Assembly: GCF_000738775.1 (NCBI RefSeq)
Contig: NZ_JPOC01000028.1
Location: 62,001 to 126,000 of the forward strand
DNA length: 64,000 bases
DNA from: Prescottella defluvii
GTDB taxonomy: Bacteria > Actinomycetota > Actinomycetes > Mycobacteriales > Mycobacteriaceae
Direction: 5' to 3'
Positions 28,906-51,289 of this stretch are shown in pieces. Positions within the stretch are counted from its first letter, which is position 1. The number at the start of each line of letters is the position of its first letter. The notes beneath the pieces are model-generated. The model saw only the letters and a list, made by a program, of their open reading frames with translations. It did not search any database and was not told where the DNA came from. The translations under genes and the position numbers were made by a program.

Positions 28906-28926
28906 GAGTCCCCCACCTATCAATGG

Positions 28927-29930: not shown

Positions 29931-29948
29931 TGATCTACCCTTCTACAA

Positions 29949-32864: not shown

Positions 32865-32912
32865 TCTGACGTCGCGCAAAGACCCGTGCAGCAGTCCCCT
32901 ACACTTCGACCG

Positions 32913-32942
32913 AAGTTGCGGAACCAGTTCTCAACGCAACTT
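32913..32942. repeat. Inverted repeat at island edge
   Basis: AAGTTGCG, 14 nt, CGCAACTT: a perfect 8-bp inverted repeat in the 113-bp gap between the FAD oxidase and the A+T-rich ATPase gene. It could be an operator, the terminator of the oxidase gene or a feature of the island junction. Confidence 0.55.
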
Positions 32943-32977
32943 GGGGACGGACGCCGCGCGAGCCCGATACGAGATCA

Positions 32978-35215
32978 GTGACCTCCATGGATGGCATTGC
33001 TTCAACTATTGACCGTAGTGGTCTGCGATTCACTCTACTTCTCCTGCCCCGTTGCTGCGCTGGTCGTCTCGTGGCTCAGCGGTTCATACTATGCATTGAG
33101 AGCATATCTCTTAAGGATTCACATCCCGGTGGACTTTCCTTGAAAGTTTGCTCACCTCACGGATATGTTTGGCCCGACTTGTTTCTGGAAAATAATTCCG
33201 ATATCGGCTCGGCCCTTCTGATTCAGGCACCAGGCGCAATGGGCAAGTCCATGGCCGCTCAAGCTATCGCAGCCCAAGCAGGATGCGCCTACGCCGACCT
33301 TTCAACCGTAAAAGTTGGAGACAATAGTCTCACTGGAATGATCTTTAAATCCCTCGATGTCGACCAGGGCGCAAGTTTCATGACTCGACTGAAGAACGGC
33401 GAAGGGAGCCTTCTTCTCGACAGTCTCGACGAAGCCGCCCTCGCTGCCGGACAGTCGCACTTTTGGGCGTTCCTCGACGACGTGGCGGGCCTACTTGTCA
33501 ATTCCACCCCAAATCGGCAACTCGTAATACTAGGCCGACCCGAATCCATCCAATCCGCAGAAATGGTATTGCGCGACAAGGGAGTATCAGTTGAGGTCGC
33601 CGAACTCTCTCCACTATCATCAATCCAGGTCGCCGAGCTGACTGGCAATGTGCTCGATGCCAATGCGACCGAAAATCAAAGGTACACGATACACCGAACG
33701 CACCCCGAGCCATTCAATGATCTCCGCGACCACGTATATCAAGATATGGCGATCGCGCTCGATCACAAAAACAGCGAGTCTTTCGAATGGAGCTCCGTCG
33801 AGTCATTCTTGGGATATCCGCCGGTAGTGGAAGCAATTGCGAAGCGACTTGAGGTCGAGAATCCGAGGAGCGAGCTTTCGCGCATAAGGTCCACCAGTTA
33901 CACTGCCCGTGCACAGGCCGACAGAGGACGCCTGCTACTTGACGTCACTGAGGTCATACTGGATCGAGAGTCACAGAAAGTACGAACACAACTTCAGAAA
34001 ATACTTTCTGTCGATGATGCAACCGCCTCACTTCTATACATCAGAGAGGAGCAAATTGTAAGAATACTCTCCCTGTTGTTGCCTGAATCCCTCGATGTTC
34101 ATGCCCCGGCATTCCTGCCCCCTGCAATGCGTGCAAAGTACGAGGAGCGTGTAGCATACTTCGTGCCCGAACACCCATTCTTGTATGGAAATAGGTTTGC
34201 CAATCAAGTATTCGCAGACTACCTTCGGGCATACGTTTCGATCGCTGACAGCATACAGGCGCACGGCGCAAATCGCGAGAAGCTTCTTTCCGCGTGCGCT
34301 CGCCCTGGTCCGTTCTTCGTGTACTTTTGCCACGCGCTGGCGGGCCAAGACGCGGGGAATTATGCAGTCACCGAAGCAATTGTGGATGACCTGGTAAAGT
34401 CCTTCACTTCCGGGAGCCGTGGAAACACCCAATTCAATCTCGTCGAAGATCGAAATAGTCGTCTTCGGTTGTGGCTTAGAGACGAGCTTGGCGACTCCGC
34501 CGAGGGCACCACCGTCGAATTCACGATCGATCCGGGATCCGGAGTCATCGAGCTTTCATCGCCAATTTCTCGCTGCTGGATTGTGACCACCAACTTTAGC
34601 TTTGTTCTACATGGAAGCACCAACAGCCTCGAGCTTGGACCAGACTGCAACATCTTGTGCGATTCGCTTGAGATCCGGGCAAGTGATATCAACGTCTTCG
34701 GCCGGGTCGATCGATCCGTAGGATCAGACACACTTCTGATGGCGCACGATTTCGTCGGACAAAAATCCCAGCGGGTGGTGGTCGACTCTTCCGCATCACT
34801 GGTAATCAATTGGCCGGACCCTTGGCATCCTTGGCAATCCCACTACCACGCCATAAGAAGCGAGCTATCAGTACCTCCGCATATAGCCCGCGAGACCCTG
34901 ATTGGCCTTCGGAAAATTCTCTTGTCGTTCAATAAATCATCAACAAAGGCCGAGCCTAGTCAGCATCGCGACCTCGTCGACAACATCATTGTCGGTAGCA
35001 GTGAAACCTTCAAGGTAATCCTGCAATCGATGCTTCACATCGGCGCTGTGATCCTGGATGGAAAGATGTATCGACTACAGACGTCAGTTCTTGCTCCGCT
35101 GGGCGTCAACTACGCCGCGTTACGGAGTGGAGAATGGACATCTTCACTAAAGGGCCTGATGGACAAAGTCCTAGCCTCGGAGACAATGCAGTCCTATGTC
35201 GAAAGTGAAAAGTAG
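32978..35215 (+). CDS. STAND/NACHT-like P-loop ATPase, accessory gene
   Basis: 745 aa from GTG 32978. Walker A APGAMGKS (about residues 84-91), Walker B LLLDSLDEA (about 145-153) and a sensor-like LVILGRPESIQ follow the pattern of STAND/NACHT NTPases; the rest, about 400 residues, is helical then beta-rich and unrecognised. The DNA is visibly much lower in G+C than the backbone. The first ~45 residues look atypical and no ribosome-binding site precedes the GTG, so the true start may be further in or the 5' end truncated. Defence or signalling ATPase is inferred from fold and island context. Confidence 0.75.
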   Translation: MTSMDGIASTIDRSGLRFTLLLLPRCCAGRLVAQRFILCIESISLKDSHPGGLSLKVCSPHGYVWPDLFLENNSDIGSALLIQAPGAMGKSMAAQAIAAQAGCAYADLSTVKVGDNSLTGMIFKSLDVDQGASFMTRLKNGEGSLLLDSLDEAALAAGQSHFWAFLDDVAGLLVNSTPNRQLVILGRPESIQSAEMVLRDKGVSVEVAELSPLSSIQVAELTGNVLDANATENQRYTIHRTHPEPFNDLRDHVYQDMAIALDHKNSESFEWSSVESFLGYPPVVEAIAKRLEVENPRSELSRIRSTSYTARAQADRGRLLLDVTEVILDRESQKVRTQLQKILSVDDATASLLYIREEQIVRILSLLLPESLDVHAPAFLPPAMRAKYEERVAYFVPEHPFLYGNRFANQVFADYLRAYVSIADSIQAHGANREKLLSACARPGPFFVYFCHALAGQDAGNYAVTEAIVDDLVKSFTSGSRGNTQFNLVEDRNSRLRLWLRDELGDSAEGTTVEFTIDPGSGVIELSSPISRCWIVTTNFSFVLHGSTNSLELGPDCNILCDSLEIRASDINVFGRVDRSVGSDTLLMAHDFVGQKSQRVVVDSSASLVINWPDPWHPWQSHYHAIRSELSVPPHIARETLIGLRKILLSFNKSSTKAEPSQHRDLVDNIIVGSSETFKVILQSMLHIGAVILDGKMYRLQTSVLAPLGVNYAALRSGEWTSSLKGLMDKVLASETMQSYVESEK

Positions 35216-35368
35216 AACAGGCGCGCAGACGTTCCGGTCATCTGGCGAAGAATCCGTTGCGAGGTCCGCAAATATCGATCAATCGCAGATCTCCAGGGGC
35301 TCACCCCAAGGCGCCCTGCTCATTCGGCAATAATGCGGTAGGCGGCGGCCCACTGATCTAAAGGAAGC

Positions 35369-35426
35369 GGACGGGACTTCCGGGAGAAGGATGCAGTCGA
35401 TACTTCTATTCCCGGAAGACCCGTCC
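35369..35426. repeat. Long inverted repeat (17-nt arms)
   Basis: GGACGGGACTTCCGGGA at 35369-35385 and TCCCGGAAGACCCGTCC at 35410-35426 pair at 16 of 17 positions, with a further AGAAG/CTTCT inside. The stretch 35216-35582 has no gene I can support; a minus-strand frame ending RPLPLDQWAAAYRIIAE may be the tail of a lost transposase. The hairpin could be an insertion-sequence end or terminator. Confidence 0.65.
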
Positions 35427-35582
35427 ATGCTGGTCTTGCATCACACGCGGGTCCAGCTGTACTGCCCAGGCAGGTTGGTTGAGAGATTGCGACGACACGC
35501 TGTAGCTGGTCGTTTAACAGCGAAAGTCTCCTGTCGTGAAGTGGAAGTTGCTGAGACAACCACAGTCCGACAGGAGACCTTC

Positions 35583-36567
35583 GTGGTCCACGCTGACGCA
35601 CCCCTGACTCCGAAGGGCAGGCGACTGCTGAAGCAGCGCATCGTCGACGACGGCTGGCCGATCGTGCGGGCACGCCGAGCATTTCAACGTCTCCTGGCCA
35701 CCGCCAAAGGATGGGCCGTGCGATACGTGGAGAAGGGGCAGGATGGGATGCATGACCGTTCCAGCCGCCCGCACCACACACCGGAACCCACCAAACGCAA
35801 GATCGTCGACCTGCGCTGGCGCAAACGTCTCACCGCAGGCGATCGGGTCACGGCTGAATATGCTGGCCAGGGCCGTGCACGCCGTGTTGGTGCGGTGGCG
35901 ACTGAATCGGCTCTCGCAAATCGACATCAGCGCCGACGAGGTGATCCGCCGCTACGAACACCTTCATTCCGGGGTCGATAATCCACGTCGATGTGAAGAA
36001 GCTCGACAATGTCTCTGATGGTAGCGGCTGGCGGTTCGTCTGCCGGGCCAAGGGCCGCAAGCGCCGGCAGGACACCCCGGCACTAAGCGCAGCAAGTACC
36101 GCAACGAACTACTCGGTCAAGCATTCGTGCACACCGCCATCGACGACCATTCCCGCGTCGCCTACGCCGAGATCCTTGGGTGACGAATACGCCGTCACCG
36201 CCGCCGGGCTACTCCGTCGTGCGGTCGGCAGGTTCGCCGCCCGTTGTGTCACCGTCGAACGCGTCCTGTCCGACAACGGTGGCTGCTACCGCTCTAAACT
36301 GTGGAATCAGACCTGCGCCGAACGGGGCATCAAAGCCAGGTACACCCGCTCCTATCGACAGCAAACCAATGGCAAGATCGAACGCTTCCACCGCACCATG
36401 GCTGCCCAGTGGGCACTCGCCCGGCACTACCAGTCCGAACAAGCCTGACGATCAGCGTTGCCGGGGTGGTTGCACACCTACAATCACCACCGGCAACACT
36501 CCGCCATCGGCAGGATCGTTCTCTTCAGCCGCTTGACCAACGTCCCTGGGCAGTGCATCAGTCATGA
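35583..36567 (+). pseudogene. Degenerate IS481-family transposase
   Basis: The IS481 transposase is readable only by switching frames. Pieces in order: VHADAPLTPKGRRLLKQRIV with MHDRSSRPHH (frame 1); AVHAVLVRWRLNRLSQID with EVIRRYEHLH (frame 2); HVDVKKLDNVSDGSGWRFV (frame 3); FVHTAIDDHSRVAYAEI (another frame); VERVLSDNGG, RSYRQQTNGKIERFHRTMA; and after a stop at 36448, GWLHTYNHHRQHSAIGR. The catalytic DDE residues are separated by at least four frameshifts (near 35840, 35960, 36085 and 36180). Not functional. Confidence 0.85.
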
Positions 36568-36579
36568 GTCCTGTGGTTT

Positions 36580-37213
36580 ATCGATGAGTGGCGTAGGGAC
36601 CCTTATCCTCACACCGCAGGACTCATCTACATCGTGGGCCTCCACCAAAAAAAGGCCCTCGCATCGCGTCAACGGATACACGGTCGACCTGGAGACCTGC
36701 AGAACGGTATTCCGCAGGTGTACCGCCATCTTCCGGCGCCCGTATAGCCCCTCCGCATGCCGATCGTGCTGAGCGTTCGTGACATGTGCATCAGTGCCGG
36801 CGCGACCCGATGGGTCGTGCGGACTTCCAGTTCCAATACTTGTGTGGGGCGAACTTGACGCTGCGGTCGGTGAGCATGGCACAGATCGGCTAAACGTGGC
36901 GCCCTGAGGTACGCATCTGGTCGATGAACTGGCAGATCAGCGGTGGCGAGGTGGGGGTACCTCCGCTTGCAGGGACGCGCCCCATCGCGAAGAAAATCGA
37001 GGCCGCATTCAGGATCTCGTTGGCGTCTTTGAGGTCTCGAATCCCACGCTTGAGTTCTGGGAATCTCCTCGGACCTACAACCAGATCGTCGATACGTCGG
37101 CCGGATACACCGTATGACGCCCGTCGTGCTTGGCGGGTGCGAGCCCACCGTACTCGCCAGTTGCGGTTGTCGAGGTTCCTGAAGCCGAACGCCAGGCGGC
37201 TACGCCCCTGCAA
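36580..37213 (-). pseudogene. Degenerate IS3-family transposase (orfA/orfB remnants)
   Basis: On the minus strand, ELKRGIRDLKDANEILNAAS followed by IFFA is the end of an IS3 OrfA; downstream fragments in shifted frames include RYPHLATADLPVHR, AEGLYGRRKMAVHLRNTVLQ and RSTVYPLTRCEGL, matching the start of OrfB. The C-terminal DDE region is absent. Several frameshifts and truncation by the neighbouring IS481 remnant. The 57 bp from 37214 to 37270 hold nothing recognisable. Confidence 0.75.
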
Positions 37214-37270
37214 ACTTGGCAGAGCGAGCAGTCCGTCTTGTGTGAACCGTCCCGGCGTGACGCCGGTGGT

Positions 37271-38125
37271 CTACCCGGGCCACCCGATCTCGCGACAAAG
37301 CATGGTTACCTTGTGCCCAAGATAGGGAGCGAGTGCAGGGATCCCCGGCTGGGCGACTCCCGCGGGGACGTCGACGCGAAATGACTCCCATCGACCGTAT
37401 TCACCGTGGTCGGACGGAGCCTGTGATTCGAGCCAAACCCGAGGTATCGATGCGACAGCACGTGGCTTCAGGTCATCCGTAAGCCGAACTGCAACAAGGC
37501 TCCAGGCTGGGTCACGGAGCATCGTCTCGTACTCATTGCGTGACAGGAAGACAGACAGTCGACCGCGGCGCGTGGTGCTCTTGACCTCCAGGTGCGCCGA
37601 AAAATCCTGACATTCAACTGAAATGTCGTAGCCGAAGCCATCCGACCAGGCTGCTACGTGCTCGACCTGAAAGTGCTCATACTGGTGCAGAAGATCGACA
37701 AGAGCGAGCTCCCCTGCCAAACCCACCCGCGCTCTCGCCGCCGTATCAACTTTGCCCCATACCGCCCCGACTTGGGCATGCGCATCCACCGTGTCGAGCC
37801 CGAGGATTGCTGCAGCTCCGAGCAGATCCTCGGGCAACTCGTCAGGAGACCGCACCAGCACGTCAGCATCGGGCAGCCAGGGCGCGCCGGAGTGCGCGAC
37901 CACGGCCTGGAAGAGCCTATGACGCATAGGAATTTGGCTTGCCGTGCTCGCAAGGAGACCGACTTGATCGAGCCAAAGATACGCGGCGTCGTACTGGGTC
38001 GGCGTGATGTCGCTGAAGTCGGGATGTGTGACGAAGATCGATCGACTACGGGCAGCACCAGACACAGGCAGCCGCTCCAACCACCGGACCGCTGCGCGCA
38101 GGACTGGTTTAGGCGGAACCGGCAT
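37271..38125 (-). CDS. DUF3883-domain protein, probable PD-(D/E)XK nuclease-like component
   Basis: 284 aa. The C-terminal half shows GYDISVECQDFSAHLEVKST (about residues 162-183): an Asp about 15 residues before E-V-K, the pattern of the DUF3883 (NOV C-terminal) domain related to restriction endonuclease folds. The N-terminal half (residues 1-130) is helical, perhaps wHTH-like. Its start lies inside the 3' end of the helicase gene (17-bp overlap), third gene of a minus-strand operon. Expected to be the cleavage or DNA-sensing component; inference. Confidence 0.78.
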   Translation of the reverse strand: MPVPPKPVLRAAVRWLERLPVSGAARSRSIFVTHPDFSDITPTQYDAAYLWLDQVGLLASTASQIPMRHRLFQAVVAHSGAPWLPDADVLVRSPDELPEDLLGAAAILGLDTVDAHAQVGAVWGKVDTAARARVGLAGELALVDLLHQYEHFQVEHVAAWSDGFGYDISVECQDFSAHLEVKSTTRRGRLSVFLSRNEYETMLRDPAWSLVAVRLTDDLKPRAVASIPRVWLESQAPSDHGEYGRWESFRVDVPAGVAQPGIPALAPYLGHKVTMLCREIGWPG

Positions 38126-39968
38126 TGAGGTGTCCGATCAGTGCCTGCAGATCACCTTGGTCCAGTCCGCCACCGATTGCAGGCTCCTCATCGAGGTCAG
38201 CAAGTTCCTGAACTGTGGGATCGTCCAGGATTTTGCCCATGAAGTGCAGTTTGTCGGCGAGCCGCTCGGCAACTACCTCGTCGATCGTTCCTTCGGAAAC
38301 CAGAACCGTCACCGTTGTCTCGGTATCAGGCGCCAGTCCTAGTCGATGGATCCGGTCCAAGCTCTGTAGGAAGCGGCCGGCCGCGAAATCGCGATCCACG
38401 TAAACGGCGTCGTGGCAATGGTGGTGGAGACTGATGCCCTCACCCAAGGTCGCGGGGTTGGACAGCAGCACCATGCATGCCGGGTCGTTCCGAAAACGAT
38501 CGATCTGATCCTCGCGATCCTTCGTCCCGCCGTGCACCACTGCCGGCGAGAACTTGCTGAGAAGGCGTTCGAGTGTCATGAGGCTTCGAACGAAGGTAGA
38601 CCACACCAGGGTCTTCCGACCGGAAGCCGCGTTCGCCGCAACGATTGCCAGAACTTCCTGGTACTTCGGTGACATCTCGTAGCTCGGGAGATCCCGCATG
38701 AGCTCGAACAATGCAGTGCCCTGAGGGACTGCGAGTGGCGCCACTTGATACGCGAGCGGTTCGTATGGTGTCGTGCCAACGGCGAGTAGTGCCGGGCTGG
38801 TTGCAGCCATCAGCATGTAAACGATGATCTTGCCAAGCGCTTGGAAGTCCTCTTCGTGCGTAGCGGCACGGGCCGATAGGCGACCGACCAGCGCGTCGTA
38901 GACCTCCTTGTGCAACGGCGGCAACGGCACCGGCCGGATCTGCGGGGTGACCGGAGGGAGACCCAGCTCGTTCTTCGTCGTTCGAGTGAACAACGGCCGA
39001 AGCACCTGGCTTGCCTTCATGAGGTCCCCGCCCGCCACTGCCTGCGTCACTGTCCGGCGACCGTGCCCGGGCCATACGAAGCCGAAGAGGTTCTCGAGAT
39101 CCTTCGCACCGTTCGGCGCTGGGGTGCCAGTGAGGATCAGCCGGTGCCGGACACGCGTCCCCAGCGCCAAACACGCTGATCCATAAGTTCCTTCGGCTCC
39201 AAGCTTCATGCGATGCGCCTCATCCAGTAGCAACATCGACGGCCGTGTGGCCAGCCATTCACCTAGTTCGTTCAGTGAACCACTCAGCCGTTCGTAGTTG
39301 ACGATGAGAACCTCGGCTGCCGGGTCGTTGTCCTTTCCGAAGACCTCCATCCGGAGTGGAGTGTCGAAGCAAACTGTGTTCTCGTATTGCCACGACTCGT
39401 AGCACGACTTCGGCCCGACGATGAGCAGCCGCTCGATCCCGCTGGCCTGTCGTTGTGCTTGAAAAACCGCCAGGCCCACCCGCGTCTTACCTGCACCCGG
39501 CACAGAGAAATTGGCACCGTGCCGCAACGACAGCAGCTTCGCGATGTCACGCCGCTGGAATGAGGTCAGGCTCCCCGTCCAGGAACTGCCAAGCAGGCTT
39601 TCTATCGCATCGGGATCCACCTCGGCAGCCGTATCCGTCGACGCATCAAGGTGCCGGGACACCGTCTGTGCATCCGCGACCGAGTCCGTGGCCAACGACG
39701 CGAGGTGCGGATCCCACACCACGCTGTCGGCCGATGGCCAGCTCGTCAACGCCACAAGGTTAGTGAGCAGCTCGTCGATCTCTACGTCAATCGAAGCGGA
39801 CGATCGTTGAATGCCCGTGCGGAATCGTGCCGCCAGTCGACGTAGATCGTGTTCGAACCCGGCTCCGGCACTCAATCGCGCCGTTGTGACACTGTTCCCG
39901 AATCCGATCTCCAGGCTCGGCTGGCCGACTACTGTCACGCCCTCTCCACGGTGGATTCGATGAGCCAT
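38109..39968 (-). CDS. SNF2/DEAH-box helicase of defence cluster
   Basis: 619 aa, shorter than chromatin-type SNF2 proteins. Motifs: SVPGAGKTRVGLAVF (Walker A, near 154), LLLDEAHRMKLG (DEAH, near 247), LILTGTPAPNGAKDLENLFG, then the C-terminal lobe with TLVWSTFVRSL, VVHGGTKDREDQI, NPATLGEGISLHHHCHDAVY and the RIHRLG motif. The N-terminal 120 residues are specific to this protein. It overlaps ParB-like by 34 bp and the DUF3883 gene by 17 bp, so the three are one transcription and probably one functional unit. Confidence 0.88.
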   Translation of the reverse strand: MAHRIHRGEGVTVVGQPSLEIGFGNSVTTARLSAGAGFEHDLRRLAARFRTGIQRSSASIDVEIDELLTNLVALTSWPSADSVVWDPHLASLATDSVADAQTVSRHLDASTDTAAEVDPDAIESLLGSSWTGSLTSFQRRDIAKLLSLRHGANFSVPGAGKTRVGLAVFQAQRQASGIERLLIVGPKSCYESWQYENTVCFDTPLRMEVFGKDNDPAAEVLIVNYERLSGSLNELGEWLATRPSMLLLDEAHRMKLGAEGTYGSACLALGTRVRHRLILTGTPAPNGAKDLENLFGFVWPGHGRRTVTQAVAGGDLMKASQVLRPLFTRTTKNELGLPPVTPQIRPVPLPPLHKEVYDALVGRLSARAATHEEDFQALGKIIVYMLMAATSPALLAVGTTPYEPLAYQVAPLAVPQGTALFELMRDLPSYEMSPKYQEVLAIVAANAASGRKTLVWSTFVRSLMTLERLLSKFSPAVVHGGTKDREDQIDRFRNDPACMVLLSNPATLGEGISLHHHCHDAVYVDRDFAAGRFLQSLDRIHRLGLAPDTETTVTVLVSEGTIDEVVAERLADKLHFMGKILDDPTVQELADLDEEPAIGGGLDQGDLQALIGHLNAGSA

Positions 39969-41347
39969 GCCACTCCGTCGCCCGGCTCATCGAATGCCCG
40001 ACCGGCAAGCTTGGCCAGGCGCCGGAGGCTATCGCGGAGCGTGATTAGGGCATCATCGAATGCCTCGTCATCGAGGACGCGCTTGGACCTCGCTTCCGCA
40101 AACTCGCTGGCGCACTGAGTTACATGCTCAGCGGCGTCGGTGAGCCGCTCGGGCACCGCGACCTTCCGCTTCTGCAGCTGGGCGTTCTGCCCAGCGAGCT
40201 TGACCGCCGTATCGAACGTCTCACGAGCCGACTTGATGAGTCCGTCCGCCTCGGAAACGGTGCCAGGTGCAAGTTTGTCCCCCGCCTGCGCGGTTGCTTT
40301 TGCCCGGAGAAGCGCATCGGTCAGTGCACGTGTTGTCTTGACCGCCGACGTCGCATCTTGCAGCTGAACTCCCGCGAGCCCGGGAATCGCAACTGACGCA
40401 GAACTTTCGACGCTGGGCTGGAGCGTGTCGGGAAGCCGCTCACTGAGATACCGCACATGGAAGTCGGACTCGGCGAGCCGGACGGATGTCTTGGGGTAGT
40501 TGAGGAGCACCATCGCCAGACGTGATTCCTTGAGCAGTTCCGCTGCATCCGGATCAGTCTTGGCAAGCTTGGTGAAGTCGCGGTGAAGCTCGCGGAGCTT
40601 CTCTTGATGGTTCTCGAAGTCAACCAGTCGCAGCCCGACGTTGTCAGCGACACGACTCCGCTCGATCGCGTCGAGGATCAGCTGGTATACCCAGCGATCT
40701 TGAGTGAGCGTCGTGGTCTTGATGTTGAAGGCTCGCGCAATGTCGTGCTCGAGGCGCCCAGCTGCGAGCTCGTCTTCGATAGCGATGAGGCGGTTGATGT
40801 AGGAGTACTCACGCCGCTTGTCTTGCCTTAGCTGAAGAGCCAGCTCAACAGCGTTGATGTCATCACGTGAGGTATCCATCGGCAGAACACCGACGCGAAT
40901 ATCCTTGACCCCCAATTCGAGCAATGCCGCGCATCGGGTGTTTCCGTCGACCAGGATCCCATCGGGGGTAATGATCCCAGGTTCCTTCTGGCCGAAGTCC
41001 TCAAGCTCGTCGAGCAGCGTAGTGAAGTCGGGGTCGGTTTGGCTTGGATTCGAAGGCTGGCATTGCAGCAAGTGCCGCAGATAGTCCTGCGCCGTCTCAC
41101 TCCACGGCTCTTCCTCGAGGATCCGGTTCTTCACTGGATCCAGCGAGCGCTGAGCGCGGATGCGGTGAGTATCCGGGTTGAAGTACAGCATCTTCACCGG
41201 CATGACGATCACGTCGAGGTGCTTCTGCTGCCCTCGCCAGTCCACAGTAACCTTGGCACCGTTTTCGTTCAGCACCTGCTGGAGCCGCTCCACCACGAGA
41301 GAACGCGTCTTCTCCCCCTCCGGCGGAAATCCGAATTTCACAGCCAT
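39935..41347 (-). CDS. ParB/sulfiredoxin-like N-terminal domain protein
   Basis: 470 aa. The motif GILVDGNTRCAALLELGVKD (about residues 128-146) is the ParB/Srx-like nucleotide-binding signature (DGN-R). Then a helical region with an HTH-like stretch (AAGRLEHDIARAFNIKTTTL), and a long helical, coiled-coil-like C-terminus (LIKSARETFDTAVKLAGQNA). Not near a ParA gene, so not partitioning. ATG 41347 follows AGGAGG. First gene of the defence operon; may sense or modify DNA or hydrolyse CTP/ATP as a switch, inference only. Confidence 0.8.
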   Translation of the reverse strand: MAVKFGFPPEGEKTRSLVVERLQQVLNENGAKVTVDWRGQQKHLDVIVMPVKMLYFNPDTHRIRAQRSLDPVKNRILEEEPWSETAQDYLRHLLQCQPSNPSQTDPDFTTLLDELEDFGQKEPGIITPDGILVDGNTRCAALLELGVKDIRVGVLPMDTSRDDINAVELALQLRQDKRREYSYINRLIAIEDELAAGRLEHDIARAFNIKTTTLTQDRWVYQLILDAIERSRVADNVGLRLVDFENHQEKLRELHRDFTKLAKTDPDAAELLKESRLAMVLLNYPKTSVRLAESDFHVRYLSERLPDTLQPSVESSASVAIPGLAGVQLQDATSAVKTTRALTDALLRAKATAQAGDKLAPGTVSEADGLIKSARETFDTAVKLAGQNAQLQKRKVAVPERLTDAAEHVTQCASEFAEARSKRVLDDEAFDDALITLRDSLRRLAKLAGRAFDEPGDGVAWLIESTVERA

Positions 41348-41457
41348 ACCACGAGCCTCCTACCCCTACGCCACATCGACTCGTGCATCATTGCAGGGGC
41401 AATCACCCGACTGCTCAGCGACCTCAGCTGACCCCACTCCCGAAACGGAGCATCCTA

Positions 41458-42156
41458 ATGTCGATCCCTACATGGAATGGACCCGACACCAAGGGCGGCA
41501 CCATGGTGAAGGGGGCCCTCTGGCTCCTCCAGGTCGTCGGGGAGGGCAGCATCTTCACCAAAGCGGATGTGCGCGCAGCTTTTCCCGGTATCTCACAAGC
41601 CGACCGCCGAATCCGGGACCTTCGGAGTCAGTTCGGCTGGGTCATTCTGACAAACACCGAAGATGCCACGCTGCTCGCCGAACAGCAACGGTTCGTTAAA
41701 CAAGGTATTCCGGTGTGGGATCCAGTCGCTCGGCGGGCGGCCACCCCGAAATCGATCCCGTCTGGAGAACTGCAGGCGGCGATGGCGCGTGACGACTTCA
41801 TGTGCACCAGGTGCGGCATCGTCGGCGGCGAGTCGTACATCGACGACTCCAACCAAACAGCCGTGCTATCCGTCTCGCGTGTGACGACGGTCCTCGCCAA
41901 CGGACGGACCGAGACCATGCTGGTTACGGAATGCAAGCGCTGCCGTTCCGGCGCCGGAAACGACCGGGCTCCCATTCGCGTGGACGACCTCATTGCAGAC
42001 ATCAAACAGTTGGATGCCAGCGATCAGGCCAGGTTTGCAAGGTGGGTCGAACGGGGGCGCCGAGGCGCAACTGCCCTGGACCGCGCGTGGTCCGAGTATC
42101 GCCGTCTTCCCGCCGACGCACGAGAAGACGTTCAGGCGTCCCTGGGTAGCCGGTGA
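41458..42156 (+). CDS. Zinc-binding HNH-like protein of defence cluster
   Basis: 232 aa from ATG 41458 (CGGAG upstream). Residues 1-90 look like a winged-helix (FTKADVRAAFPGISQADRRI). Middle: RDDFMCTRCGIVGGESYIDD then LVTECKRCRSGAGN: two CxxC pairs as in HNH nucleases, but the His residues of the H-N-H triad are not evident. It may be a degenerate HNH, a zinc-finger, or a nuclease with a shifted active site. Divergent from the ParB-helicase-DUF3883 operon with a 110-bp shared region; same strand as the methyltransferase. Confidence 0.68.
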   Translation: MSIPTWNGPDTKGGTMVKGALWLLQVVGEGSIFTKADVRAAFPGISQADRRIRDLRSQFGWVILTNTEDATLLAEQQRFVKQGIPVWDPVARRAATPKSIPSGELQAAMARDDFMCTRCGIVGGESYIDDSNQTAVLSVSRVTTVLANGRTETMLVTECKRCRSGAGNDRAPIRVDDLIADIKQLDASDQARFARWVERGRRGATALDRAWSEYRRLPADAREDVQASLGSR

Positions 42157-42422
42157 TCACACGCCGTTTTGATGCGTACGCTGCCTCCACTGAGGTCTTC
42201 GCAGTCACCTGAGCACGGAGTAGGCACGCGGAATCAGAATTGTCACCGAGTCCACCTACACTTGCCACCCGTACCTGTCATGCCCGCTCCATACGCCGAC
42301 CGCTTGATCACTGTTGAACTTGCGTCGAGGAGACGAGCGGTGGCGCGATGAACCGTAAACCTGCACCAGGTAGAGGTCATCTGCGCCGACAGGGCGTTCA
42401 GGCGAACCAGAGGGAGAACCAC

Positions 42423-43733
42423 ATGTCGGCATCAGTGCAGAAGCAACGACTCAAAGTGGTCGAGATTTGCGCTGGTGCCGGCGGGCAATCCCTTGGACTC
42501 GAACGCGCCGGGTTCGAGCACGCGCTTGCCGTTGAACTCGATCTTCACGCTGCAGCCACGCTGCGACACAACCTCACGCATGGGGACGAGGTAGTGCGGG
42601 TCGGGGACGTTGCCGATCCAGAGACGTGGAATCCAGACGAGTACGCCGGCATCGACCTGCTGGCCGGTGGCGTCCCATGCCCTCCCTTCAGCATTGCAGG
42701 GAAGCAACTCGGCGCAGGAGATGAGCGGGATCTGTTCGCTTGGGCAATCGAGCTCTGCGGACGTATGAAGCCCCGAGCTCTGCTGCTCGAGAACGTCCGA
42801 GGTCTCAGCTCCAACAGGTTCTCGGCCTACCGTCAGCATGTTCTTGATCGGCTGCACGAGTACGGCTATGTGGGTGAATGGAAGCTCCTGCACGCGTCTG
42901 ACTACGGCGTTCCCCAGCTGCGTCCCCGTTTTGTGCTCGTTGCGATGCTGCCCGAGTACGCGGAGCACTTCGAGTGGCCCGCGCCCAATACCATCCAAGC
43001 GCCGACCGTCGGAGATGTTCTCGCCGACCTCATGGCAGACGGCGGATGGGAGTCACAAGAAGTCGAGCGGTGGGTGAACACCGCTAGTGACATCGCGCCG
43101 ACAATCGTCGGCGGATCCAAGAAGCACGGCGGCGCTGACCTTGGCCCCACTCGTGCGAAGCGCGCCTGGGCGGCGCTCGGCGTTGATGCGAAGGGCGTCG
43201 CTGACGGCCCGCCTGGCCCGGGCTGGAGGCCCGCCGGCGACGCTCCTGGGCCCAGGCTCACCACCGAGATGGTTGCTCGAATCCAAGGGTGGCACGGTAG
43301 CGAGTTCGCGCACTGGAAGTTCCTCGGCCGGAAGACCACCGTCTACCGGCAGATTGGCAACGCTTTCCCCCCACCCGTCGCGAAAGCAGTCGGCGAGTCC
43401 ATCATGAACGCACTCTGCAAGGTTGGAACCCCACGTCAGCTCATCGAAACGACGAGTGCCGTGCATGATCCGGTTTACAAACTGCTACGTGGAAGCACGC
43501 GCCCACTCAGCGTGACCCAGATCGTCTCCAAGCTAGCGAAGGCAGGCTTGACGATCGACCAGCCTACGGTCGAACGCCATCTTGCCCATCTCGGCCATGA
43601 CTTCGAGATCTTCACTGTCGAACGGGCAACTGGCGAGACGAGCTACAGCCTCGGAGAGTTCCGCGCATTCACAGGGCAAGAAGATCATCAGCGTCACGAC
43701 CTCTTCACTCAGCACCGAGCAAAGATCAGCTGA
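42423..43733 (+). CDS. DNA (cytosine-5-)-methyltransferase
   Basis: 436 aa. Motif I ICAGAGGQSLGLERAGF, motif IV with catalytic Cys in GGVPCPPFSIAG (near 86-88), motif VI LLENVRGL (near 122), motif VIII-like LRPRFVLVAML, target-recognition region 180-290, and IX/X in YRQIGNAFPPPVAKAVGE. A C-terminal ~90-residue winged-helix-like extension (RPLSVTQIVSKLAKAGLTID) is unusual. ATG 42423 follows AGGGAG; ATG 42348 would add 25 residues. Pairs with the convergent Vsr gene, overlapping by 8 bp. Modifies an unknown sequence and probably protects the host from this cluster's nuclease. Confidence 0.93.
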   Translation: MSASVQKQRLKVVEICAGAGGQSLGLERAGFEHALAVELDLHAAATLRHNLTHGDEVVRVGDVADPETWNPDEYAGIDLLAGGVPCPPFSIAGKQLGAGDERDLFAWAIELCGRMKPRALLLENVRGLSSNRFSAYRQHVLDRLHEYGYVGEWKLLHASDYGVPQLRPRFVLVAMLPEYAEHFEWPAPNTIQAPTVGDVLADLMADGGWESQEVERWVNTASDIAPTIVGGSKKHGGADLGPTRAKRAWAALGVDAKGVADGPPGPGWRPAGDAPGPRLTTEMVARIQGWHGSEFAHWKFLGRKTTVYRQIGNAFPPPVAKAVGESIMNALCKVGTPRQLIETTSAVHDPVYKLLRGSTRPLSVTQIVSKLAKAGLTIDQPTVERHLAHLGHDFEIFTVERATGETSYSLGEFRAFTGQEDHQRHDLFTQHRAKIS

Positions 43734-44214
43734 CCTCAAGCTTCGATTCCACTCGCTGAACTGAGTCATTCAATGACTCATGCTCCCAAACCCGCACGAC
43801 CGTCCATCCAGCGTTGGTCAACGCCTGGTCGGCTGCGCGGTCACGTTCGATGTTTCGACGCAGCTTGGGAGTCCAGTACCACTCATTCGCCGTCGGGTAC
43901 CTTCCATGAATTGGACATACATGCCAGAAGCATCCGTCCACAAACACCGCGACCATTCTCCGAGTGAAGACGATGTCCGGGCGCACTCGAACATCATCGA
44001 GGTCGATCCGGAAATCCTTCCTGAACCGGTACCCCAGCCTGTGCAGCTCGCTCCGAAGAGCCACCTCAGGCTTCGTATCTACCCGCCTGTTCGCACGCAT
44101 ATTGCGGGACCGCCGCGGATCGCCCGCGGCTGGATAACGCTCACTCCGCGAAACAGCAGGGGCCTCGACAGTACCGACATCACCCCGAGCAGCACCCCTG
44201 GACACTTGCATCAC
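43726..44214 (-). CDS. vsr: Very short patch repair endonuclease (Vsr)
   Basis: 162 aa. Family motifs: RNMRANRRVDTKPEVALRSE, then RPDIVFTRRMVAVFVDGCF and FWHVCPIHG (catalytic D80 region, D93, and the Cys/His zinc ligands), and RDRAADQALTNAGWTVVRVW. Vsr nicks 5' to T in T:G mismatches created by deamination of 5-methylcytosine, so it accompanies C5 methyltransferases. Its 3' end overlaps the methyltransferase by 8 bp, tail to tail. The start is uncertain: GTG 44214, ATG 44211 and GTG 44205 all follow TGGAG. Right end of the island. Confidence 0.92.
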   Translation of the reverse strand: MMQVSRGAARGDVGTVEAPAVSRSERYPAAGDPRRSRNMRANRRVDTKPEVALRSELHRLGYRFRKDFRIDLDDVRVRPDIVFTRRMVAVFVDGCFWHVCPIHGRYPTANEWYWTPKLRRNIERDRAADQALTNAGWTVVRVWEHESLNDSVQRVESKLEVS

Positions 44215-44369
44215 TCCAGGTTAGTAACCCGCCCAAAGTTCAGGAGCACGTCGAAGATCTGGAGCCATCCGATGCCTCCGGCTGGCGCCGCGATACCGTG
44301 GACACCCACCGACCACCGACTTTGCAGCGCCTGAACCGTAGATCCGGCCGGCGCCGGACAGGGGAAGAA

Positions 44370-44948
44370 ATGACCGAGCACGATACGCCCGAACAGCCGC
44401 TCCAGCTCGAGGGCGCGTTTGCGATTGCCACGGAGGAGCGCCATCAGCTGCACAGTCTGTCGGTGCGGACGCTGACGGAGCTGCTCGGCAGTGCGCCGGA
44501 GGTTGATGAGGACGGTGACATCCTCGTTCCCGTGCACGGCTTCGGCGTGTACGTCACGGTCGCGGATGACGGCCCGCAGCTGCATGTGTGGTCCTCGCTG
44601 GTCACCGGGATCGCCGATCGCACCAAGGCCGTCGAGCAGCTCGTCGAGCTGTCCACGGAGTGGCCGCGTCTGCGTTTCACCCTCGAGGACGAGCACCTGC
44701 TGGTCTCGACGGTCCTCGACGCGGACCCGTTCGCGCCGCAGCACCTGATCAACCTGGTCGACGAAGTCCACGAGTTCACGCACGAGCTGGACGACGATTT
44801 CGCGGCGAAGTTCGGCGGCACCCTCGACTGCGATGCCGACGACGACTCCTACGCCGGCGGCTGCGGCGGCTGCGGTGACGACTGCGACTGCGGCCACGAC
44901 GCCGGCGACCTCGGGGAGACCATCCCCGTCGGTAAGCCCACGAACTGA
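44370..44948 (+). CDS. YbjN-like protein with Cys-rich tail
   Basis: 192 aa from ATG 44370. The central region (LTELLGSAPEVDEDGDILVP; GFGVYVTVADDGPQLHVWS; then RFTLEDEHLLVSTVLD) has the alternating beta-alpha pattern of YbjN/type III chaperone-like proteins in actinobacteria. The C-terminus ends in an unusual stretch, GGCGGCGDDCDCGHDAGD, with four Cys and one His, plausibly a metal site. A strong hairpin follows 7 bp after the stop. Function unknown. Confidence 0.72.
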   Translation: MTEHDTPEQPLQLEGAFAIATEERHQLHSLSVRTLTELLGSAPEVDEDGDILVPVHGFGVYVTVADDGPQLHVWSSLVTGIADRTKAVEQLVELSTEWPRLRFTLEDEHLLVSTVLDADPFAPQHLINLVDEVHEFTHELDDDFAAKFGGTLDCDADDDSYAGGCGGCGDDCDCGHDAGDLGETIPVGKPTN

Positions 44949-44955
44949 CCGAAGT

Positions 44956-44980
44956 GGGCGGGTCCGTCACGGACCCGCCC
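44956..44980 (+). terminator. Intrinsic terminator hairpin
   Basis: GGGCGGGTCCG, TCA loop, CGGACCCGCCC: perfect 11-bp stem between the YbjN-like gene and the convergent small-helical-protein gene that ends at 44986. Likely bidirectional. Confidence 0.85.
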
Positions 44981-44985
44981 CTCAG

Positions 44986-45354
44986 TCAGCCTTGCCCGAT
45001 CACCCCGAACTTCGTGGCGTTGTCGTTTTCGGTGGCAGAGAAGCGCGCGTCGATCTTCTCGAACAGCGAACGCATCCGGTCCACTTCCTCGATGTGATCG
45101 GTGAGCGCCTGCACCATCGGATAGTCGCCACTGACAGCTTTGGCCTCGAATTTGGCCTGCATGACAGATCCGCTCGGCAGGTGCCCGAACCCCTCGACCT
45201 TCCCCAGCACTCGGGCACGCTCACGCAACTGAGAGAGTTCTGATATCAAGGCCTCGCAACGTTGCGCGCACCGGAGTGCGACTCCGGGCTCCAAATAAAG
45301 CTCACCGCCATCCACCGCGCCAGCAAGGTCGCTCCAACCGCCGCCATCCACCAT
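44986..45354 (-). CDS. Small helical ESX-like protein, module copy 3
   Basis: 122 aa from ATG 45354 (GAGGGG upstream). More divergent paralogue of the proteins at 28528 and 29553: RCAQRCEALISELSQL, GFGHLPSGSVMQAKFEAKAV, QALTDHIEEVDRMRSLF, FSATENDN. The Cys pair of helix 1 and the GFG-PSG turn are kept. 26 bp after the DUF3558 lipoprotein gene. Confidence 0.72.
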   Translation of the reverse strand: MVDGGGWSDLAGAVDGGELYLEPGVALRCAQRCEALISELSQLRERARVLGKVEGFGHLPSGSVMQAKFEAKAVSGDYPMVQALTDHIEEVDRMRSLFEKIDARFSATENDNATKFGVIGQG

Positions 45355-45380
45355 CGCAGGTTCCCCTCGACTGGGCTCGA

Positions 45381-45896
45381 TCATTCCGGGATGTGCGGGA
45401 CCAGTAGGCCCGCCATCTCGACTACCAACGTGCACGGATCATCTGGCACGCGGGCCAGTACCGCCTCCGAGATCGAGATCATCACCGCTCCGGAACCGGA
45501 TCTTGTTGCCACATCACAGATCCCGCCTTCCGTATCGGTGCGGTCCCGATACTTGATCATCTCGCGGTGATCGATCTCGAGGTCCGAGAAATCCGTGTAC
45601 CGATCGTTGCCACGAATGTCGTCGAGGGTGTAGGTCGTCGCGAAGACACTGAGAAAGTGCGTCGAGTTGTTCCACCCGCAGATGTTCCATCCAGGCTGAT
45701 GCACGTCCATGATGTCGCGTGCTTCGGTCGCCGGATCCATTCCGATCGCCCGGATCGCCTCGTCGGGGATGTCGTCGCACGGACTGAACACCGGATCGCC
45801 TGCCGCCCGCTCGGTCGGCGCGGCCTCCCCTGCCACTGCCCCACCGCACCCGGCCAACATCACCGCCGAGCACACCACACCCAGTGCAATTCGCAC
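45381..45896 (-). CDS. DUF3558-family lipoprotein, module copy 3
   Basis: 171 aa from GTG 45896, preceded by GGGGAGG. Signal peptide with lipobox VMLAGC. Mature part keeps AAGDPVFSPCDDIPDEAIRA, GMDPATEARDI, GWNICGW and the FATTYTLDDIRGNDRYTDFS block of copies 1 and 2. The upstream region carries a variant of their shared element (GTGCGTC, then TAGTGT). Cell-envelope protein of unknown function. Confidence 0.88.
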   Translation of the reverse strand: MRIALGVVCSAVMLAGCGGAVAGEAAPTERAAGDPVFSPCDDIPDEAIRAIGMDPATEARDIMDVHQPGWNICGWNNSTHFLSVFATTYTLDDIRGNDRYTDFSDLEIDHREMIKYRDRTDTEGGICDVATRSGSGAVMISISEAVLARVPDDPCTLVVEMAGLLVPHIPE

Positions 45897-45921
45897 CCGA
45901 ATCCTCCCCCTCACCACGCCC

Positions 45922-45937
45922 ACACTAGCTTCGACGC
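45922..45937 (-). promoter_or_regulatory. Shared upstream element of DUF3558 modules (copy 3)
   Basis: On the minus strand: GTGCGTCGAAGCTAGTGT, matching the GTGCGTC-n-TAGGGT elements at 29484 and 30497 with a slightly longer spacer. The TAGTGT hexamer lies about 26 bp before the lipoprotein start. Weaker match than the other two. Confidence 0.45.
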
Positions 45938-46072
45938 ACCGAACCGAACGACGGTTCCACCCACGTGACAGCAGTGAACTGCCAGCACACTCCGCTTCCG
46001 CACAACTATCACGGTGCCCGGAGGACCTCCTCGAACTGTTGCCTCGAGTTACGTCGACGCTGCAACCGCCGC

Positions 46073-47917
46073 TCAGCCGTCCACTTCCAGGCCGTAGTCG
46101 GTTGCCAGGGCCGCGAGGCCGTCTTCGTTGCCCTGGCCGACGGCGCGGATCCGCCAGGCGCCGCCGCGGCGGTAGATCTCGGTGAGGACCATGGTCCGTT
46201 CGACGGTGCCGGCGTCGAGCACGAATGTCGCGAAGGTGTTGTCGGGTCCGTCGACGCTGACCGACACGGCCCCGAGGTCGCCGAAGGTGCGGTCGCCGTC
46301 GATGGCGGCGGCGATCACGATGCGCTGGCATTCAGCTGGCAGTGCTGCGAGGTCGACGCGGATGCACTGCTCGCTGCCGCCGTCGATCGACAGTTCGACG
46401 GCGTTGTCGGCGTCGACCGGGTTGTTGTAGAACACGAAGTCCTGATCGGAATCGACGCGGAAGTTCTCGCCGAGGAGGAAGGCGACGACGTCGACCTCGA
46501 ACTCGTCGCCCACGTTCTCGGCCCGCCAGGCCACGTTGACCGCCCACGACGGCGGCGCCGACGGCAGGTCGACGACCTGCCCGCGGGCCAACATCGGTGC
46601 GGCCAGACGGGATTCGACGCGCATGTGCGCCGGGACGGTCCCCGAGGCGAGTGCCTCGTTCACGTCGGCTTCCCGGATCAGCGGCAACCCGCGGGCCTCG
46701 ACCCGGGGCATGCGGCGATCGGATTCGCCGCCGGCCAGGACGAGGACGTCGGTGACGGCGGCGGTGAGGTTGAGCGACGGTCGCGCGCCGAGCTGGACGA
46801 TCCGCGAACGCATCAGGACACAGTCCAGATGCGTGCCGCCCATCAACAGCACCCGGCGCCCCCGCCACGCCGTGGACTTACTGCTGGGGAGCGGCTTCGG
46901 TGTCGATGTAGCCGGCTGCGGAGCCTCCACGACGATCACCTCGGGGACGACCACCTCGGGAACGATCGCCGCCGGCACGCTGAGCATCGGCTCCGTCTTC
47001 GACACGCCCGCAACGACTCTCGCCAGCAGCTCGTCCAGTTGCGCTTCCGAGATCACCGGGATCCCGTCCGCGGCGGCCCTGCGCACCTTCGCGCTGCCGG
47101 AGCGCGGGTCGTCGCACACCACGACGCTGGTCTGCCGGCTCACCGAGTTCATGACGTCGAAACCGGCGTCGGCCAGCCGGGCCGCCAGGGTCAGTCGCGG
47201 GGTCCGGGTGGAGCCGCTGATGACGATCTTCATGCCCTGGACCAGACCCGTCGCCGGATCGAGTCGACCGGGGTTCTCGAACGCGGACGGCACCCGCGTC
47301 ACCTGGTCGGGGTAGACGGTCGTGCGCCGACCCCGGCAGTTCACCACCGGCAGCGGCAGCTGCAGCGCCTCGGCCAGTGACACGCTCCGCGTGAACACCT
47401 CGGTGAGGACCCGCGCGTCGTCGTAGGCGTCGTGCGCCTGGAGTTGCTGCACCTGCCAGTATTCGGCGAGCGTGCCCAGCCGATGGTTGGGGACGTCGAG
47501 TTCGAGTCGCCGCGACAGCGCCAGCGTGCACAGCCGATGCTCGATGGGGTTGGGCACGCCGACCCGCTGGAACTCGGCGTCGAGGAAGCCGTAGTCGAAG
47601 GACGCGTTGTGCGCGACCATCGTCGGCCCGGACAGCAGTTCCGCGACCTCGTCGGCGACGTCGTCGAACCGCGGCGCCCCCGCCAGCCGCTCCCGGGTGA
47701 GTCCGTGGATCTCGACGGGCCCCGGATCGCATCCGGGATCGAGGAGCGTGGAGAACTCGCGCTCGACAGAGCCGTCCTCCCGCAGCACCAGCGCCGCCAG
47801 GCTCAGGACCCGGTGTGACGCGGCCCGACGGCCGGACGTCTCGACGTCGACCACCACCCACTTGTGTCCGTGCGGCATCGAGTGCGTCCCCGCCCGGTAC
47901 ACGCCTGCCCTGGTCAT
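46073..47917 (-). CDS. DEDDh exonuclease - BRCT - TerD fusion protein
   Basis: 614 aa, with ATG 47917 following an ideal GGAGGAAACGC. Residues 18-190: DnaQ-type exonuclease (VVVDVETSG with D24/E26; VAHNASFDYGFL; HDAYDDARVL). Residues 225-300: BRCT (GMKIVISGSTRTPRLTLAAR); a second BRCT-like segment (RGRRVLLMGGTHLDCVLMRS) at about 350-420. Residues 430-614: TerD/tellurium-resistance domain (WRAENVGDEFEVDVVAFLLG; SDQDFVFYNNP calcium site; TEIYRRGGAWRIRAVGQG). Combines nuclease and stress-response domains in one chain; role in DNA-damage or envelope stress is inferred. Confidence 0.88.
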   Translation of the reverse strand: MTRAGVYRAGTHSMPHGHKWVVVDVETSGRRAASHRVLSLAALVLREDGSVEREFSTLLDPGCDPGPVEIHGLTRERLAGAPRFDDVADEVAELLSGPTMVAHNASFDYGFLDAEFQRVGVPNPIEHRLCTLALSRRLELDVPNHRLGTLAEYWQVQQLQAHDAYDDARVLTEVFTRSVSLAEALQLPLPVVNCRGRRTTVYPDQVTRVPSAFENPGRLDPATGLVQGMKIVISGSTRTPRLTLAARLADAGFDVMNSVSRQTSVVVCDDPRSGSAKVRRAAADGIPVISEAQLDELLARVVAGVSKTEPMLSVPAAIVPEVVVPEVIVVEAPQPATSTPKPLPSSKSTAWRGRRVLLMGGTHLDCVLMRSRIVQLGARPSLNLTAAVTDVLVLAGGESDRRMPRVEARGLPLIREADVNEALASGTVPAHMRVESRLAAPMLARGQVVDLPSAPPSWAVNVAWRAENVGDEFEVDVVAFLLGENFRVDSDQDFVFYNNPVDADNAVELSIDGGSEQCIRVDLAALPAECQRIVIAAAIDGDRTFGDLGAVSVSVDGPDNTFATFVLDAGTVERTMVLTEIYRRGGAWRIRAVGQGNEDGLAALATDYGLEVDG

Positions 47918-51000: not shown

Positions 51001-51289
51001 CAGCCTCAAGGCCGGCGGATTCGGCCTCAACCTCACCGAGGCCGACTACTGCTTCCTGCTCGACCCATGGTGGAATCCGGCGTCCGAGGCGCAGGCGGTG
51101 GACCGCACCCACCGGATCGGACAGACCCGAAATGTGATGGTGTATCGGCTGATCGCGAAGGACACCATCGAGGAGAAGGTGCTCGCGATGCAGGCCCGCA
51201 AGTCCGAACTGTTCGCCAGCGTCGTCGACGAGGGCGGCGAATTCAATGCGACGCTCACCGCCGACGACATCCGGGAACTACTGAGCTGA
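48065..51289 (+). CDS. SWIM zinc finger - SNF2 helicase fusion
   Basis: 1074 aa. SWIM site CSCPVRLNCKH near residues 77-88, then an ~500-residue middle region, then SNF2 ATPase: LADDMGLGKTVQSLAL (near 638-650), LLLDEAQFVKNHRAK (DEAQ, near 739), ITGTPMENNLMELWSLL, C-terminal SLKAGGFGLNLTEADY and RTHRIGQTRNVMVYRL. An ATP-driven DNA translocase. The window also has SWIM and SNF2 as separate adjacent genes (1-563, 574-3423), so the pair is probably one functional unit. Ends 2 bp before the convergent slipin gene. Confidence 0.93.
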   Translation: MLSPADRDHTTLSLVRVVGRTTYDRGARYAGRGAVLELEWMPDSGVAVGLVDGTDLYRTVVQLDRRRDGLEFGHGQCSCPVRLNCKHAAALTIALLDRAADAVAPAPPSWEDVLGAALGEPTGTRDHAFSLGVQLSLTPGPRSQFWRLSARLARPGKSGWVNANLLWTNLGHMPDADRRHVDLLTELYSMYLAGNRRSHSYGAVKDIDLTTVASARLWPLLDEAADAGLELLYARKGAGALPRPATAQLCVDIDEDRGGLEVTPAVRTDDAEQPVTVLGFFGAPAHGVLYLPPGERPGATSAQWPFRIARLSGDTPKAMQELIIDGGSITVPAADADRFAVEFFPRLQRAATVRSGAGSFTAPTITGPDLLLHVAYRPGHRADLRWQFRYTVGDAERLVDPSAEPAESFRDAGRERAAAELDAPLESYGLRTGGVLVPRVTLTGLDTARLSTELLPLLRGRDDVEVLIEGAPADYRDAGDSLHIGVGTAATDDSDWFDLSITVRVEDRPVPFRDLFAALTAGESHLLLDDGAYLSLDKPELQRLRDLIAEARGLHEQDPDRLRLSRFQAGLWEELAALGVVEQQAAQWRKQVQGLLEVATAAKTRVPGQLQATLRPYQLDGFRWLTFLWANGLGGILADDMGLGKTVQSLALICHARAKKPTDPPVLIVAPTSVVANWAAEAARFAPHLTVVPIAETATKRGAPLADSIEGADVVVTSYTLARLDDEEYQAQRWSMLLLDEAQFVKNHRAKAYQCMRRIDAPTKIAITGTPMENNLMELWSLLSITAPGLFPNPTKFQDFYRKPIEADGDSELLGQLRRRIRPLLLRRTKEQVATDLPDKQEQVLEVELSPRHRRLYDTQLQRERQKILGLVDDVDTNRFTILSSLTLLRRLSLDPALLDDEHAAIGSAKVDALLEQLDDVVAGGHRALVFSQFTGFLDRVRQRLDAEGIGYTYLDGGTRNRADVLATFKSGDAPVFLISLKAGGFGLNLTEADYCFLLDPWWNPASEAQAVDRTHRIGQTRNVMVYRLIAKDTIEEKVLAMQARKSELFASVVDEGGEFNATLTADDIRELLS

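Follow-up and report, generated by a model that had tools for sequence, protein, structure and literature searches.

Analysis of a 64,000-nucleotide stretch of Prescottella defluvii DNA (contig NZ_JPOC01000028.1, positions 62,001 to 126,000; hereafter the window) identified six adjacent genes at 37271–44214 that probably serve in defence, with a predicted function as a variant of restriction–modification. The genes encode a ParB-like protein, an SNF2 motor, a DUF3883 protein, an HNH-like protein, a C5 cytosine methyltransferase and Vsr. We consider it reasonably likely that they form a composite restriction–modification defence system, on account of their linkage counts, the 17 arrangements in which they recur, the correlations between protein distances, the partners found in the endonuclease slot, the location of the locus and its rarity. 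Directly observed are the gene set, its linkage, its exchange of partners, its location and the domain assignments, which vary in strength.

Gene set and linkage

All six open reading frames (ORFs) were found where an initial annotation of this DNA had placed them, and make up one accessory locus. Families were assigned with Pfam, PADLOC 2.0.0 and NCBIfam models, giving the following features:

37271..38125, minus strand: DUF3883/NOV_C protein of 284 amino acids, a predicted PD-(D/E)xK nuclease (PF13020, 1.5e-7, 31.8 bits against a cut-off of 22.1)
38109..39968, minus strand: SWI2/SNF2 ATPase of 619 amino acids, or 609 from GTG 39938 (PF00176, 8.9e-15, 55 bits; PF00271, 7.9e-7)
39935..41347, minus strand: ParB-like protein of 470 amino acids with a VDGNTRxAAL box and a weak ParB_N profile match, a putative ParB/Srx-fold nucleoside triphosphate (NTP) switch or nickase
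41348..41457, no strand: divergent intergenic region of 110 bp between the ParB-like and HNH-like genes, read from the sequence
41458..42156, plus strand: winged helix–turn–helix (wHTH) and HNH-like zinc-finger protein of 232 amino acids (longest ORF from 41383), a putative endonuclease-slot or recognition subunit
42423..43733, plus strand: C5 cytosine DNA methyltransferase of 436 amino acids from ATG 42423 (longest ORF from 42348; PF00145, 2.6e-58, 198 bits; TIGR00675)
43726..44214, minus strand: Vsr very-short-patch-repair endonuclease of 162 amino acids, start uncertain, convergent with the methyltransferase (TIGR00632, 1.8e-46, 157.3 bits against a cut-off of 97.85)

A species-genome collection was scanned with an alignment of the ParB-like protein and nothing else, and the 80 best of 140 relatives were kept. 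Every one of these loci carried SNF2 and HNH-like genes; the C5 methyltransferase was present at 78, Vsr at 74 and DUF3883 at 36. All five core genes were present at 74 loci and all six at 32, and the core genes spanned a median of 6.3 kb. The neighbours therefore recur in unrelated genera, the check that the initial annotation had proposed: the 80 loci span 23 named genera and 11 named families, with 47 loci from Streptomyces. The proposed six-gene membership stands for the five linked core genes, but DUF3883 is an optional member. Order and strand of the five core genes took 17 different forms among the 74 complete loci; over all 80 loci there were 25 arrangement strings, six of them from loci without Vsr. 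Two of the six Vsr-less loci also lacked the methyltransferase; four of the six run to a contig end (L025, L029, L036 and L101) and two do not (L046 and L050). By phylum label, 77 loci belong to Actinomycetota, one to Myxococcota (Corallococcus, L048) and one to Bacillota (a Clostridia metagenome-assembled genome, L064, possibly misbinned), and one is unlabelled. With the source genome counted, ParB-like matches occurred in 8 of 298 genomes of an order-level sample (two of them distant), 4 of 396 genomes of a phylum-level sample (one of them weak) and 2 of 14 genomes of a genus-level sample, a rarity that fits an accessory system. Searching with all six proteins by tblastn located all six genes in two genomes (G226 and G249) and five in three others (G255, G097 and G278). 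Among viral contigs, one relative (L104) was adjoined by SNF2, DUF3883 and C5 methyltransferase genes.

These counts bear on one alternative, an ordinary type II methyltransferase–Vsr pair lying beside unrelated helicase genes with no joint function. The same genome carries a second C5-methylase/Vsr pair elsewhere (G000:C38:11768-13148; similar matches occur in congeners), so such pairs can stand apart from ParB–SNF2. However, the genes stay linked in 17 different arrangements and beyond a single phylum, whereas 41 related genomes contained only 0–6 C5-methylase stretches and 0–2 Vsr genes each, a scarcity that makes chance neighbourhood unlikely. We regard this explanation as highly improbable. 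The linkage counts, the spread over 23 genera and the variable chromosomal spot described below, where congeners have defence-like genes, instead support the initial annotation in treating the genes as one defence-type system.

The tight gene junctions reported initially were also re-examined. A 34-bp overlap between the ParB-like and SNF2 genes holds if SNF2 starts at ATG 39968, but an alternative in-frame GTG at 39938 would give a 4-bp GTGA stop–start overlap. In 68 of 80 relatives the ParB stop lies in a 4-nucleotide overlap with the SNF2 frame, and 45 have ATG, GTG or TTG at that point; because the base before the ParB TGA, taken alone, was no better than chance, the reading frame was tested as well. 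The 17-bp SNF2/DUF3883 overlap proved identical in 22 of the 36 relatives that have DUF3883, the 110-bp divergent gap is correct if the HNH-like gene begins at ATG 41458, the start suggested by homologues, and the methyltransferase stop does overlap the convergent vsr, with 8 bp shared (43726–43733). The 110-bp divergent region contained no match to the sigma-70 consensus, and neither sigma-70 nor terminator scans rose above chance.

Two layouts were distinguished among the 80 loci. The first, which includes 28 loci and is that of the window, combines a divergent HNH-like gene with DUF3883 and lacks a helix–turn–helix (HTH) regulator gene. In the second (40 loci), the HNH-like, ParB and SNF2 genes share one strand, the HTH regulator is present and DUF3883 was not found. 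Seven of the remaining loci correspond to the second layout with DUF3883 added, and five are mixed. The HTH regulator gene, XRE-like by eye, lies near the HNH-like gene at 47 loci (for example, L076:7333-8094). On a quick, unrooted SNF2 tree, built without L026 (split ORF), the DUF3883 presence label required 7 changes and methyltransferase type switched 6 times. DUF3883 accompanied all four rows of a distant clade (L015, L016, L022 and L104) and no row of a 32-row clade, a pattern that fits loss if the root falls between those two clades.

Co-inheritance was graded across the set. Distances of the HNH-like, ParB and SNF2 proteins were mutually correlated at 0.85–0.94, those of the methyltransferase with these three at 0.60–0.64, and those of Vsr least (0.30–0.49), in permutation tests without phylogeny correction on 75 loci plus the window; these tests excluded L015, L016, L022, L023, L026 and L104, and also any locus in which a member was missing, short or weak. 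Once SNF2 was removed, residual correlation with the methyltransferase was 0.28 for the HNH-like protein, 0.26 for ParB and 0.09 for Vsr. The residual correlation of SNF2 itself with the methyltransferase was 0.006 after removing ParB and 0.17 after removing the HNH-like protein.

Component proteins and proposed mechanism

The D...ExK signature of DUF3883 (GYDI ... EVK) aligned in all seven sequences compared, and the SNF2 protein has intact Walker A GAGKT and DEAH motifs (11-row alignment). Its identification as DpdE, ZorD or DrmD was rejected as generic helicase similarity (at most 56 bits in PADLOC). Neither the ParB-like nor the HNH-like protein reached the cut-off of any Pfam or NCBIfam family. 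When 59 relatives of the former and 66 of the latter were scanned against Pfam, no family emerged convincingly; 24 of the 66 showed a weak HTH_39 wing. Sequence searches of the PDB with alignments of the two proteins returned nothing meaningful (best E 0.55 for the HNH-like and 0.012 for the ParB-like alignment). Comparison of the ParB-like protein with ParB_N by hhalign gave a plausible register but a weak score (probability 9.3, 5.3 and 3.0 in three runs, best E 0.0035; other profiles at most 0.7). RefSeq names its relatives 'ParB N-terminal domain-containing protein', and a [VI][DN][GA]N[TR]R box was found from Actinomycetota to Bacillota. Proteins of the ParB/Srx group can be NTP-regulated nucleases or nickases, according to one study (PMC5512222).

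The initial description of the divergent gene as Zn/HNH-like fits its two CxxC pairs and HNH-like fold, but an 87-row alignment showed no conserved histidine between these pairs, and the protein resembles a degenerated occupant of the endonuclease slot. An arginine is kept in 82 of the 87 rows, its equivalence to the histidine position being read by eye. The protein matched the REase_II profile weakly (0.0046), as did 14 of 66 family members (best 2.3e-6). No PacI-type enzyme was among the matches listed in a fold search, a result that does not exclude PacI-type kinship. The methyltransferase matched the PADLOC models DruM2 (656 bits) and MTase_II (586 bits); its C-terminal extension is weakly wHTH-like, with an Arg_repressor-like match at residues 390–437 of the long ORF that fell below the cut-off.

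In the composite system that we favour, the C5 methyltransferase would mark the host's own recognition sites, and Vsr would repair T:G mismatches arising from deaminated 5-methylcytosines at those sites. The wHTH/HNH-like protein, occupying the slot of an endonuclease-like gene of some other lineages, would recognize unmethylated sites and, as it is without the conserved histidine, probably binds rather than cuts. The ParB-like protein, acting as an NTP-dependent DNA clamp, switch or nickase, would load SNF2, a putative double-stranded DNA translocase, and this motor would bring in the DUF3883 PD-(D/E)xK nuclease, leading to destruction of unmarked DNA. Every biochemical step of this scheme is our inference from protein families and gene context, and so are the assignment of recognition to the HNH-like protein, the choice of phage or plasmid as target, and the way marking is separated from cutting.

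The system could instead be modification-dependent (type IV-like) or directed against plasmids: detection of foreign DNA that is modified or replicating would fall to the ParB-like and HNH-like proteins, and the methyltransferase and Vsr would be an independent neighbouring pair. ParB/Srx and HNH domains are described as parts of GmrSD-type enzymes, and the methyltransferase and Vsr are the more loosely co-inherited members of the set. Nevertheless, these two genes are present at 78 and 74 of the 80 loci, and both also lie near ParB–SNF2 in Rhizobium, Mesorhizobium and one Lactiplantibacillus plasmid. The ParB-like protein, moreover, has no GmrSD_N (DUF262) Pfam match, and membership of GmrSD type IV was itself rejected on that ground and on a profile comparison of 0.3–0.7% (7 GmrSD rows). 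We find a type IV-like or anti-plasmid system distinctly unlikely.

Named systems and the wider ParB–SNF2 family

The initial annotation proposed the locus as a candidate undescribed system. In agreement, no PADLOC 2.0.0 or NCBIfam model among the matches shows a name for the set, although AbiR, discussed below, may be kin to it, and the open-licence literature searched yielded no account of these genes as a system (DefenseFinder and subscription papers were not searched). The locus supplies genes with which a restriction-type system unnamed in the defence catalogues searched can be put to the test. The claim that DISARM, BREX and Druantia signatures are absent stood as far as their defining genes are concerned, none of which was seen, but the best PADLOC model of the methyltransferase is DruM2. 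That fit at 656 bits is the likeness to Druantia type II. The six proteins differ from Druantia in that their listed matches at E ≤ 0.1, which for the methyltransferase were the top 25 of 62 families, contain no DruE, DruF or DruG; Druantia membership was rejected because DruE (and DruF/DruG) was not seen among the six. DISARM was rejected: neither DrmB nor DrmC was among the matches shown, SNF2 scored about 40 bits with DrmD and 11.6 with DrmA, and the methyltransferase matched DrmMII at 98.7 bits, far below DruM2. BREX was likewise rejected: no PglZ or BrxX/PglX match was shown, and there was only BrxHI/BrxHII helicase similarity at 17–19 bits.

Similar gene types have been reported in MORC/paraMORC operons. 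One survey (Iyer 2008, PMC2292703) describes one operon type with a SWI2/SNF2 helicase and an HNH nuclease, and C5 methylase and VSR genes as frequent in these neighbourhoods, so that SWI2/SNF2, HNH-type, C5 methylase and Vsr genes are shared with the present set. The GHKL ATPase that defines those operons is not matched here, however, as none of the six proteins had a GHKL/HATPase match at E ≤ 0.1, and the word 'ParB' is absent from the text of that survey. Classical type II restriction–modification with Vsr shares the C5 methyltransferase, Vsr and an endonuclease-slot protein; the present set differs in adding ParB-like, SNF2 and DUF3883 proteins and in having a slot protein that lacks the HNH histidine.

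Plasmid records indicated that the ParB–SNF2 pair also extends to Pseudomonadota and Bacillota. Each of 6 plasmid records matching the ParB-like protein (one from Streptomyces) had an SNF2 gene next to it, with DUF3883 in 5, and each of 19 records matching SNF2 at E ≤ 1e-40 had a ParB-family ORF immediately upstream; the 19 include several near-copies and one split SNF2 gene, in Enterococcus. The Paracoccus stretch and three Enterococcus stretches carried no annotation. A C5 methyltransferase and Vsr lie near ParB–SNF2 in Rhizobium and Mesorhizobium, the gene before ParB in the latter matching REase_II at 67.7 bits. In Lactiplantibacillus and Priestia plasmids the pair is accompanied by dcm and a Sau3AI-type/MutH endonuclease, with Vsr once (L230), and in Exiguobacterium dcm lies about 5.6 kb away. 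Three such plasmids (L211, L229 and L230) encode SNF2-related proteins of about 850–880 amino acids with Sau3AI/MutH endonucleases and dcm nearby, and the N-terminal stretch of SNF2 from the Lactiplantibacillus plasmid L211 matches PbeA and PLD_Helicase profiles. Streptococcus phage Javan191 has a BanI/DpnII-like endonuclease gene followed by ParB, SNF2 and NOV_C, and then a C5 methyltransferase on the opposite strand. Type III mod–res genes stand directly upstream of ParB–SNF2 in plasmids of Lactococcus, Lacticaseibacillus, L. reuteri, L. plantarum and Enterococcus (such arrays in Lactobacillales plasmids are L215, L216, L217, L218, L220, L221 and L225). No restriction–modification partner or methyltransferase is listed near the pair in the Enterococcus faecalis plasmid L228, where an 864-amino-acid sigma-like HTH protein precedes it; L228 is the one record read from a 36%-identity group among 52 Enterococcus plasmid records matched by the Lactiplantibacillus SNF2 query.

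The cores seen with the pair were thus a C5 methyltransferase with an HNH-like, BanI-like or Sau3AI-type partner, and type III Mod/Res. ParB–SNF2 is probably a portable motor module that is joined to different restriction–modification cores. More tentatively, the two proteins could be a general and previously unrecognized immunity motor module, used in several phyla with chemically different cores. The nuclease of such a module would be a DUF3883 gene or, probably, a PLD-like domain fused to the motor, and the module would read the outcome of site recognition and not the methyl mark itself. The type III plasmids have the same pair (profile E-values run from 1e-13 to 6e-17 and, where the genes are intact, from 2e-68 to 4e-73), but in them Mod/Res replaces the C5 methyltransferase, Vsr and HNH-like protein, and DUF3883 was not found with a profile that can miss divergent members, as it missed the Pfam-detected Javan191 copy. 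How one motor pair might serve both C5-methyltransferase-based and type III recognition is a question that these loci raise.

By description, the closest parallel appears to be AbiR, encoded by Lactococcus lactis plasmid pKR223, where it adjoins LlaKR2I, a Sau3AI isoschizomer. AbiR is multigene and its AbiRc component is an SNF2 helicase (PMC10925250), it needs its methylase to spare the host (PMC2661086), and, unlike in the present set, no Vsr or HNH-like protein is mentioned in the available parts of its descriptions; the two were compared by description only. AbiR may be a distant relative of the six-gene set. On an abortive reading of this likeness, ParB–SNF2–DUF3883 would be a suicidal DNA-attacking machine restrained by the methyltransferase; infection or loss of methylation would free it, the infected cell would die, and AbiR would be a distant family member. 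The Sau3AI-type genes found with ParB–SNF2 on Bacillota plasmids are in keeping with such a system, but dependence on a methylase fits plain restriction–modification equally, and no model named AbiR was among the PADLOC matches shown, a library that may hold none. We judge the abortive alternative unlikely; the composite restriction–modification system that we prefer offers a frame in which the methylase-needing AbiR could be understood.

A variable chromosomal spot

The initial annotation placed the genes in an accessory island, and their composition and surroundings bear this out. G+C content is 0.61–0.62 over 36–44 kb of the window compared with about 0.70 across much of it, and the region 31485–46331 holds a conserved FAD-oxidase-like gene (named by eye) followed by a variable chromosomal spot. 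Of 13 congeners, 11 have that gene (31485–32864) nearly full length at 89–97% identity, and one more has a partial copy (92%). The cargo downstream of it differs among the 11 congeners fetched, some families being common to several, and one congener (G686) has all six genes at the same spot in another arrangement. PADLOC matches at E ≤ 1e-10 were found in 13 of 20 hand-chosen cargo proteins from six other congeners, with at least one in each, and include MzaC/MzaD, type IIG enzymes, LeoA/LeoBC, DrmB and Hhe/PDC-S37; the scan covered six congeners at this spot, with L204, L207, L208 and L209 outside it.

Other features of the spot and its flanks were as follows. A 745-amino-acid ORF at 32978–35215 has a P-loop-like GAMGKS stretch (by eye) and no Pfam or PADLOC match at E ≤ 0.01; it is possibly another defence NTPase. 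Short ORFs in several frames at 35391–36448, one of which matches rve (integrase core) at a score under the cut-off, are apparently a decayed insertion sequence. Pairs of small-protein and lipoprotein-like genes flank the island on both sides (28528–30473 and 44986–46331), with DUF3558 matches at 28927–29457 and 45381–46331. Outside the island, at 48065–51289, a 1,074-amino-acid SWIM–SNF2 protein matches the PADLOC DpdE profile at 758 bits.

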